DNA from: Acholeplasmatales bacterium DTU067
Lineage (GTDB): Bacteria > Bacillota_I > Bacilli_A > ML615J-28 > CAG-698
Assembly (NCBI GenBank): GCA_001512995.1
Contig: LFRY01000057.1
Span: 19,750-78,182, forward strand
Length of the DNA: 58,433 nt
Direction: 5' to 3'
The position numbers and the translations under genes were made by a program. The notes under the pieces are model-generated. The model did not search any database. It was not told the DNA's origin and worked only from the letters and a program-made list of their open reading frames with translations. Positions 11,613 to 13,924 of the stretch are shown one piece after another. Within the stretch, counting starts at the first letter, position 1. The number at the start of each line of letters is the position of its first letter.

Positions 11613-12251
11613 GTGAAGCTAAAAAGGATTTCAAAGGAAAAAGCTCAGCGAATTCTTTTTATCGCGGTGCTGGTTCTTGTTTTCGGAGTATTTTTCATTT
11701 CTTTAAGCTTGCTTAATCCGCGAGAAACTCCCCCGCCGGGAGGGGAAGATCCCGGACCGCCGATTGAAGAACCCGAAGATCCAATAGTATATGAAAAAAT
11801 CATAGCCCCTTATATAGCAAAAAATGTCGAAACCATCAGAAGATTTTGGGCATTGGATAAAGAGACTGAAATACAGGAAATGTCGTTCATAGTTCAGGGC
11901 AGTTCTTATTATACAAGCACGGGAATTTCTTATTCCGCAGGCGATGAAGGATTTGAGGTCATCGCCAGCTTGAGCGGAACGGTGAAGACCGTCAGCGACA
12001 GTTCCGTTTTCGGAAAGGTGGTCGTGATTGAGCACGACAATGGTCTGGAAACGGAATACAGAAGCCTCGGAGAAGTTAGCGTGGAAATCGGCGATGAAGT
12101 TGCCCAGGGCGATGTCATCGGCATCTCCGGCGAAAACGAAAATGATGCGAGCGCGGGAAACCATTTGCACTTCCGGATTCTGGTGAACGGCAAGCCGAAA
12201 GATCCTGAGCTCCTAATCGGAAAAGCCATCAATGAAATAAACGAAAATTAA
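11613..12251 (+). CDS. spoIIQ: stage II sporulation protein Q (degenerate M23/LytM domain)
   Basis: Forespore membrane protein that binds mother-cell SpoIIIAH to form the engulfment-stage channel. One transmembrane helix (about 12-33) is followed by a Pro-rich linker and a LytM domain (about 95-200). Motif check: the H-x3-D metal pair is replaced (TSTGISYSAG), the Y-x-HL site reads YRSL, and only the final NHLHF is kept. It is therefore predicted to be catalytically dead, as Bacillus SpoIIQ is thought to be. The wording IASLSGTVKTV--S-VFGKVVVIEH and YRSLGEVSVEIGD is very close to SpoIIQ. GTG start at 11613 with AGGTGA 7 bases upstream. Its position between ywzB-like and spoIIID matches Bacillus. 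Confidence 0.88.
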   Translation: MKLKRISKEKAQRILFIAVLVLVFGVFFISLSLLNPRETPPPGGEDPGPPIEEPEDPIVYEKIIAPYIAKNVETIRRFWALDKETEIQEMSFIVQGSSYYTSTGISYSAGDEGFEVIASLSGTVKTVSDSSVFGKVVVIEHDNGLETEYRSLGEVSVEIGDEVAQGDVIGISGENENDASAGNHLHFRILVNGKPKDPELLIGKAINEINEN

Positions 12252-12288
12252 AAGCCTTATCGTTTTGATAAAGCTTTTTATTTTTTTG
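12250..12288 (+). terminator. intrinsic terminator after spoIIQ
   Basis: AAAAGCcTTATC (12250-12261) pairs with GATAAaGCTTTT (12267-12278) around one mismatch, followed by TATTTTTTT. It overlaps the end of the convergent membrane gene. Confidence 0.75.
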
Positions 12289-12889
12289 TCTGATGGGATA
12301 TCGTGTAAACGATAAGAAAACAAATTGCTGAGCCCATAAGCAAGAAGGGAAAAGTTCTCAAAAACAAATTCTTTTCAAAAAAGGCGCCAATCGCGGCAAG
12401 AACCGCAGCCTCTTTATTTGTAAAAGCGCAGAAAGCGGCTCCGAGAACAAACACCAAGAAATATGTTTTTAAGCTTCCGAAAATCCTTGCAATCAAAGTG
12501 AGGAGGGAAGCGAGCGAATAAGCAAAAAGGGAAAGTAAAAAGACGAAGGGGAGCAGGAGTTCGTTTCCGGAAAGAGCGGAGCCCGCTAGCAGGAAGGCGA
12601 GTGCGCCTAAGCTCTGGAGCAGGGCATTGATTCCGGAAAAGATGAGACTGCTTAAGAAAAACAAGGTATTGCTCGGTCTGAAGGCATAATAATGATGTTT
12701 CAGTTTCCGGTATTCGTAAGCTCCGAGGTGAAAACAGCTGAAGAGAACGAAGCCGATGGCTGCGCTCCAGAAATGGATGAATTCCGCTTGCAGATAGAGA
12801 AGCGCAGAAATGATGGAGAAAAAAGGAAACCAGATTAAGAAGTAATAGCGCCGATGTGCATAATAACGGAAGGCCAATGCGGACAACAT
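12278..12889 (-). CDS. polytopic membrane protein, partner of the degenerate ABC ATPase
   Basis: 203 residues, nearly all hydrophobic, with about six membrane segments (FLIWFPFFSIISALLYL, FWSAAIGFVLFSCF, TLFFLSSLIFSGINALL, LLLPFVFLLSLFAYSLASL, YFLVFVLGAAFCAF, FPFLLMGSAICFLIVY). It has no signal peptide and no assignable family motif. It starts 2 bases after the ABC-type gene ends, so the pair is one transcriptional unit, and by position it would be the ABC-2-like membrane component. It lies convergent to spoIIQ. Function unknown. Confidence 0.65.
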   Translation of the reverse strand: MLSALAFRYYAHRRYYFLIWFPFFSIISALLYLQAEFIHFWSAAIGFVLFSCFHLGAYEYRKLKHHYYAFRPSNTLFFLSSLIFSGINALLQSLGALAFLLAGSALSGNELLLPFVFLLSLFAYSLASLLTLIARIFGSLKTYFLVFVLGAAFCAFTNKEAAVLAAIGAFFEKNLFLRTFPFLLMGSAICFLIVYTISHQTKK

Positions 12890-12891
12890 GT

Positions 12892-13773
12892 TTATAAACC
12901 CTTTTTCTCGCGCAGATCCAAAAGGTAAACGAACACCTTCTGGATCGGTGCTTCGGAGATTTTAATCAGGTACTTCTGAAATTTCCTGGTTTCGTCCTTC
13001 GTTAAGGCTTTCGCCACGCAAACGGTGAGGATGTTGTAGCGTTCCTCGGCGCCAATGACTTTCAGATCGGATATTAAAGATTTCAGCACTTCGCTCTTTC
13101 CGCTTAAAAGCCGAAAGTTGTTTTTTATGTATTTGACCGTAAATGTTTCGAAAAGCCTGCCCTTATCCAAAAACAAAATTTTGTCAATTAAGTTTTCTAT
13201 TTCATCGACATTATCGGTTCCTATTATCAGAGTGCGCGGATAGCGGGTATGGTGGGAATAAACGAAATTATAAAAATCAAAACGGTCTTTCAGATCGATT
13301 TTATCCAAGGCAGAACCGAAGATGGTAATGTTGGCTCTTGAAGCAAGTCCGATGATTCCCGAAAAAAGAATCTTTTCGTTTGCTTTCAGGCTTCCGTAAG
13401 TCCTTTTTCTTTTGATTTTGAAATATTCGCATAATTCGAAAGCGTAGGCGTTATCCCATTTTGGATAAAGCCAGGACATCAAACGAAAAATGCTTTTGAT
13501 TCGAAAATGCTTCGGGAATGAAGTTGCTTCCGAAATATAGCACAGGCGCTTGTTCATTTTCAAATTACCGAAGAGTTCCTCCCCGTCCAACCAAACCTTT
13601 CCGGAATCGGGGCGAATTTGCGCGGCCAAAATCTGCAAAAGCTCATCGCGGCCGGAGTTGTCCCTTCCCACAAGCGCATAGATTTGGTTGTCAAGAAAAT
13701 TGTAGCTGAAGTTGCTCACCACAGGATTCTTCTTGATTTTCTTCGTTAAATTCTCGCAAACCAAAACGGACAT
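12892..13773 (-). CDS. ABC-type ATPase homologue with all nucleotide motifs altered
   Basis: 293 residues with the fold layout of a YtrB/EcsA-like ABC ATPase but none of its catalytic motifs intact. Walker A (GPNGAGKTT) reads GRDNSGRDE at 36-44, so the lysine is R and the next Ser/Thr is D. The Q-loop region reads YISEA. The signature YSKGMKQ reads YGSLKANEK. Walker B (LLILDEPT) reads ITIFGSAL, so both acids are gone. The H-loop (ISTHI) reads IGTDNV. The frame is nonetheless open end to end, with SD AAGGGA and a co-transcribed membrane partner, which argues against a random pseudogene. It is divergent from spoIIID. A structural or regulatory role in sporulation is inference. Confidence 0.75.
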   Translation of the reverse strand: MSVLVCENLTKKIKKNPVVSNFSYNFLDNQIYALVGRDNSGRDELLQILAAQIRPDSGKVWLDGEELFGNLKMNKRLCYISEATSFPKHFRIKSIFRLMSWLYPKWDNAYAFELCEYFKIKRKRTYGSLKANEKILFSGIIGLASRANITIFGSALDKIDLKDRFDFYNFVYSHHTRYPRTLIIGTDNVDEIENLIDKILFLDKGRLFETFTVKYIKNNFRLLSGKSEVLKSLISDLKVIGAEERYNILTVCVAKALTKDETRKFQKYLIKISEAPIQKVFVYLLDLREKKGL

Positions 13774-13895
13774 ATTTCTTCCCTTTGCATTAATAAAACT
13801 AATTTAAATATACACTATTTCATAAAAAAAGTCAATAAAAACGGAACAGCAAAGAGCGGAAAAAATCAATTATCAAAACCCCCCTTTCCGGCAAG

Positions 13896-13924
13896 TTATA
13901 TTAAAAGTGAGACGCGCATATATT
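13896..13924 (+). promoter_or_regulatory. candidate sigma-E promoter of spoIIID
   Basis: TTATATTA (13896-13903) resembles the sigma-E -35 (kmATATTT). After 13 bases CATATATT (13917-13924) matches the -10 (CATACAnT) at 7 of 8 positions, counting the n. The predicted start falls just before the GGGGGGA ribosome site. spoIIID is sigma-E dependent in Bacillus. Confidence 0.6.

Follow-up and report, generated by a model that had tools for sequence, protein, structure and literature searches.

ABC systems of the PmtA/YtrB type have been described as PmtR-PmtAB in S. aureus, YtrA-YtrB in B. subtilis and ClnR-ClnAB in C. difficile. YtrBCDEF affects cell-wall thickness (PMC8060467); for ClnAB the effect is on gene regulation and not on resistance to LL-37 (PMC6117091). 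One nucleotide site of an ABC protein is formed by the Walker A, Walker B and H-loop of one subunit together with the signature of the other (PMC7756269). Here we analysed a stretch of DNA of 58,433 nucleotides (the window), in which an ABC gene and an adjacent membrane gene lie between spoIIQ and spoIIID. The ABC protein has the same length and C-terminal extension as the PmtA/YtrB type, and its gene, like theirs, is accompanied by that of a membrane subunit. Unlike these systems, the protein is devoid of catalytic motifs, a GntR gene is missing, and the ABC gene has its own sigma-A-like promoter at a spoIIQ-spoIIID locus (Table 1).

Table 1. Features of the ABC locus, in window positions.
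Feature	Position	Strand	Basis
spoIIQ, M23 domain	11613-12251	+	NCBIfam 127 bits, below 250-bit cut-off
Terminator-like hairpin between membrane gene and spoIIQ	12250..12278	-	sequence
Membrane partner, 203 aa, weak ABC-2-type TMD resemblance	12278..12889	-	ORF, profile comparison, model
ABC nucleotide-binding-domain protein, 293 aa, predicted ATPase-dead	12892..13773	-	ORF, Pfam, alignment, predicted fold
C-terminal domain, residues 213-293, best-conserved part in the family	12895..13137	-	column conservation
H-loop-equivalent GTDN, residues 185-188	13210..13221	-	alignment with intact relatives
Walker B-equivalent ITIFGSA, residues 149-155	13309..13329	-	alignment with intact relatives
Signature-equivalent LKANE, residues 129-133	13375..13389	-	alignment with intact relatives
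Walker A-equivalent GRDNSGRD, residues 36-43	13645..13668	-	alignment with intact relatives
Shine-Dalgarno-like AAAGGGAA (upstream of ABC start: AAAGGGAAG)	13779..13786	-	sequence
Sigma-A-type promoter TTGACT-17-TATATT of ABC gene	13807..13835	-	consensus match
Sigma-E-like site TTATATT-14-CATATATT upstream of neighbour spoIIID	13896..13924	+	consensus match
spoIIID	GTG 13907 as listed; ATG 13946 likelier start	+	Pfam 105 bits

An ABC fold without catalytic residues

The original prediction described an open gene of 293 codons with a Shine-Dalgarno sequence and a partner gene 2 bases downstream; both reading frames and the spacing were found as described. The ABC protein passed the Pfam ABC_tran cut-off of 25 by a small margin (28.5 bits, residues 20-106 only), and its best NCBIfam match was PmtA (residues 19-283), at 58.7 bits far under the cut-off of 350. 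An AlphaFold2 model with a pLDDT of 91.7 displayed the nucleotide-binding-domain fold, and the top solved structures matched by Foldseek were all ABC ATPases (TM 0.6-0.76). Full-length matches that include the C-terminal domain comprised 4yer and NosF, and the EcsA model 9a6w_B was also matched. Alignment with intact relatives showed that GRNGAGKT had been replaced by GRDNSGRD, which deviates from the Walker A consensus GxxGxGK[ST], and LSTGY by LKANE in place of an LSGGQ-type signature; VILLDEP corresponded to ITIFGSA, with GS at the positions of the Walker B Asp-Glu, and STHL to GTDN, from which the H-loop His is absent. The four motif placements proposed from the sequence (GRDNSGRDE, YGSLKANEK, ITIFGSAL and IGTDNV) all proved correct.

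Relatives outside the window's own family were sought across the class, and 11 were examined. The nearest belonged to other Bacilli families, equally full-length and with motifs that are near-intact; in one of them (L085, GRNGAAKT) a single Walker A glycine deviates. For ten of the 11 the alignment extends from end to end and takes in the C-terminus (hhalign prob 100, E 1.5e-51, 286 columns). Nine of these ten genes immediately follow a short gene for a GntR-like regulator, no upstream regulator ORF being listed for the tenth (L091), and all ten are followed by genes for membrane proteins of ~205-300 aa. The regulators of two relatives were searched and found to be GntR by Pfam with PmtR as one of the top NCBIfam matches, and the relatives' ABC proteins match PmtA. 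Similarity between the window's membrane partner and the relatives' subunits was weak (hhalign prob 81, E 1.2e-5), and no YtrA/GntR regulator was found among the window's neighbouring genes. Given the full-length ABC homology, the operons of the relatives and the similarity of the membrane proteins, a GntR-ABC-TM operon is the most likely ancestor of the window pair.

Motif loss and constraint across the family

Among 60 genomes, all of them draft assemblies, we identified 24 orthologues, every one in the window's own family (24 of 28 genomes), which consists of uncultured bacteria akin to the wall-less Acholeplasma. They share 46-73% identity, and all 24 have open frames free of internal stops. 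Four genomes do not have it. In G020 and G027 the IMPACT neighbour is located at a contig end, and the absence is explained by contigs ending near the locus. In the other two (G008 and G021, genus g7) IMPACT abuts DUF1146 with no ABC gene between, and these absences look like clean, true losses.

None of the orthologues has a complete motif set. The H-loop His and the fourth Gly of Walker A are missing throughout, and the signature S..G is missing in 23 of 24, the sole keeper being G017 (locus L014, LSRG). The Walker A Lys is retained in 11 of 24, followed by Ser/Thr in 2; the Walker B Asp is retained in 14 and the Walker B Glu in 2. G006 has kept GKSNSGKS together with FDE, and G025 GKSDSGKD together with FDE. 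Motif erosion is thus family-wide yet uneven, with the window's genus among the most eroded. A whole family-level clade shares these losses. The claim that every ATPase motif had been erased, which holds for the window protein, thus comes out stronger than first put, with the correction that the retained residues vary between members.

For the four pairs with computable dS (0.9-2.3), dN/dS was ~0.06-0.12, values that are only approximate because dS is near saturation. The family alignment contains 40 invariant columns. Mean column conservation was compared between 23 family and 10 relative sequences, two sets that differ in divergence: in the relatives it was 0.93 for Walker A, 0.86 for the signature, 0.93 for the H-loop and 0.54 for the C-terminal part, versus 0.67, 0.48, 0.53 and, for residues 220-290, 0.81 in the family. 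In the tree, the family radiates only after a stem branch 1.4-1.9 changes per column long. Judged from these comparisons, the ABC gene is a constrained pseudo-ATPase and not a decaying gene, and the open frames, low dN/dS, invariant columns and confident model bear out the earlier proposal that selection kept the fold and not the catalytic residues. Our search of open-licence papers returned no description of this pseudo-ABC family.

Membrane partner, locus and sporulation

The model of the membrane partner has long helices, seven in number, one of them maybe split or amphipathic. A fold search returned no significant solved match for it (best E 0.93), with NosY and ABCG-type TMDs at TM 0.4-0.6. 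Within the genus the membrane partner is ~35% identical, versus 73% for the ABC protein. Six carriers (G006, G007, G014, G017, G019 and G025) have no membrane gene beside the ABC gene and none elsewhere by profile search, where a profile-negative membrane gene could be a too-diverged relative; on the tree these absences amount to about two losses. Relocation of the membrane gene was rejected, the profile finding no copy elsewhere in these six. The partner-less clade of L014 (G017), L015 (G025) and L016 (G006) has kept more ATPase motifs than most partnered members. Because the membrane partner diverges fast and is missing in six carriers, the conserved element is the ABC-like protein, and the notion of a membrane complex is weakened.

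In most family loci that could be tested on their contigs, the ABC gene is flanked by DUF1146/spoIIQ and by spoIIID/IMPACT/cca-like genes; the position between spoIIQ and spoIIID, whose sharing by homologues had been put forward as a check, is therefore conserved, and it looks inherited. In the loci of G007 and G026 (L039 and L040), putative small regulator-like and DegV-like genes were seen by eye upstream of the ABC gene, in the place of spoIIID. As to the window's own spoIIID, a GGGGGG run precedes the ATG, the SpoIIID profile match comes shortly after it, and the listed GTG is probably wrong. Several genomes of the sister family (L110, L111, L112 and L113) have the spoIIQ-spoIIID-IMPACT neighbourhood without the ABC gene, the spot being occupied by genes for a radical SAM protein and a putative rRNA methylase. 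With different genes at this spot in the sister family, the position of the ABC gene reflects a family-level acquisition at an older locus and is no evidence of function.

A sigma-A-like promoter lies 33 nt upstream of the ABC gene (p 0.01 versus shuffles in the window). Both hexamers recur unchanged and equally spaced at 11 of the 24 loci (eight from spore-formers, three from non-spore-formers), and many other loci have variant forms. The promoter is identified by its match to the consensus, and in several members (G017, G010 and G016) this match is weak or missing. Upstream of the window's ABC gene no sigma-E site better than chance was found, and the gene is thus without a recognisable sporulation sigma-factor promoter.

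The original prediction had the pair used in sporulation, as a membrane complex with SpoIIQ-SpoIIIAH. The position between spoIIQ and spoIIID in spore-formers and the presence of the ABC gene in all 11 SpoIIID-positive genomes would fit such a complex. However, SpoIIID was found in 11, SpoIVA in 9 and the ABC gene in 24 of the 28 family genomes, so that 13 of the 24 carriers are without SpoIIID and SpoIVA. Eight of these 13 genomes have a completeness of 90% or more (G004, G006, G007, G010, G011, G014, G015 and G024). The gene is thus not confined to spore-forming genomes, and by parsimony the spore state changes at least five times on the ABC tree. Its promoter is sigma-A-like, whereas spoIIID has a sigma-E-like site, and unrelated genes fill the same spot in the sister family. 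Retention in non-spore-formers together with the promoter type makes a dedicated sporulation role unlikely; we rejected it, and consider a sporulation complex with SpoIIQ-SpoIIIAH very improbable.

Genes with a transpeptidase domain (PF00905) occur in exactly the 11 SpoIIID-positive family genomes and in 0 of the 17 others, and SEDS (one copy) and MraY-type genes in 10 of these 11. The sole SEDS gene of the window's genome (L114:8828-9940, G000:C12) is followed downstream by putative murB, ftsZ, spoIIGA, sigE and sigG, as judged by eye. In the sister family, 12 of 15 genomes have a single SEDS gene, mostly with one MraY-type gene. The distribution in the window's family suggests that these bacteria retain peptidoglycan solely for the spore and that vegetative cells may lack a wall. 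For Anaeroplasmataceae, a GTDB family that may be the window's own, spore and wall genes have been reported in part of the family, leaving open whether the cells are walled or the genes vestigial (PMC10868615). Carriers without SEDS or transpeptidase genes retain the ABC gene, and a cell-wall role like that of YtrBCDEF was considered unsupported on this ground.

A predicted ATP-independent role

Within ABC proteins, the nearest parallels to a fold kept under selection without catalytic residues are TAP, CFTR and RbsA/NupO (PMC7756269, PMC11466899). In these, one site is degenerate and the other works, whereas in the window protein Walker A, Walker B, signature and H-loop are all affected. The protein could still be the degenerate half of a heterodimeric transporter whose intact nucleotide-binding domain is encoded elsewhere: one degenerate site per dimer is common (PMC7756269), B. 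subtilis RbsA/NupO have such a site (PMC11466899), and the window's genome contains other ABC genes. Known degenerate subunits, however, normally retain what the other site needs, while here Walker A/B and the signature are both gone; moreover, there is no linked gene for a second nucleotide-binding domain, and the membrane partner can be dispensed with. We regard a heterodimer as quite unlikely. Lacking Walker A/B, H-loop and signature, the window protein would probably complete neither a homodimer nor a heterodimer site.

The main rival arises from those members that keep the Walker A Lys (11 of 24) or Walker B acids (the Asp in 14 of 24). Some of them might still bind a nucleotide, be it ATP or a different one, and respond with a conformational change but no hydrolysis, and the motifs of G006, G025 and G017 given above are in line with this; nucleotide binding may thus survive in part of the family. 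Against a non-hydrolysing sensor stand the window protein itself, which has neither the Lys nor the two Walker B acids, and the loss of the H-loop His and the fourth Walker A Gly in all members, so that we judge this reading unlikely, if less so than a heterodimer. Decay to a pseudogene, or neutral persistence of a former transporter gene, would account for the motif loss, the lack of a linked regulator and a membrane partner that evolves fast and is sometimes missing, and near-intact homologues, named beforehand as half of what would speak for drift, do exist outside the family. Drift is nevertheless contradicted by the dN/dS values, and the open frames in all 24 members, the 40 invariant columns, a promoter conserved in many members and the confident model led us to reject a pseudogene, which we hold to be extremely improbable.

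With no completable ATP site predicted, the simplest role left is that of a non-hydrolysing scaffold or regulator in which the C-terminal domain is central. FtsEX, EcsAB-RasP and ClnAB are likewise ABC complexes that act as regulators and not as pumps; EcsA and ClnA are assumed to have an intact ATPase. FtsE acts via its ATPase activity (PMC11627006), unlike the motif-less window protein.

We propose that an ABC subunit of the YtrB/PmtA type, a type usually encoded beside a GntR regulator, landed together with its membrane partner between spoIIQ and spoIIID in the family ancestor, as the comparison with the sister family shows. As comparison with the relatives shows, the linkage to GntR has gone and the ATPase residues were lost on the long stem branch, followed by purifying selection with the strongest constraint in the C-terminal domain. 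The protein, with predicted vegetative expression, would then act as an ATP-independent scaffold or regulatory adaptor, with a fast-evolving and dispensable partner that probably serves as its membrane anchor in most species. We see about an even chance that this explanation holds as a whole, from a GntR-ABC-TM-derived pseudo-ATPase to an ATP-independent vegetative scaffold or adaptor, a role reached by elimination. Somewhat more tentatively, the pseudo-ABC protein may be a regulatory scaffold throughout the family, independent of ATP and of its partner, with constraint shifted to the C-terminal domain, in many apparently wall-less bacteria.

As a rule, a degenerate ABC site is one member of a pair that works. 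If the proposed explanation is true, this family would provide a clear example from nature of an ABC protein changed from a motor into a non-motor component: a conserved, stand-alone subunit that has lost both halves of its site while retaining the fold and outliving its membrane partner. This change from motor to non-motor would be testable because intact, alignable relatives exist.
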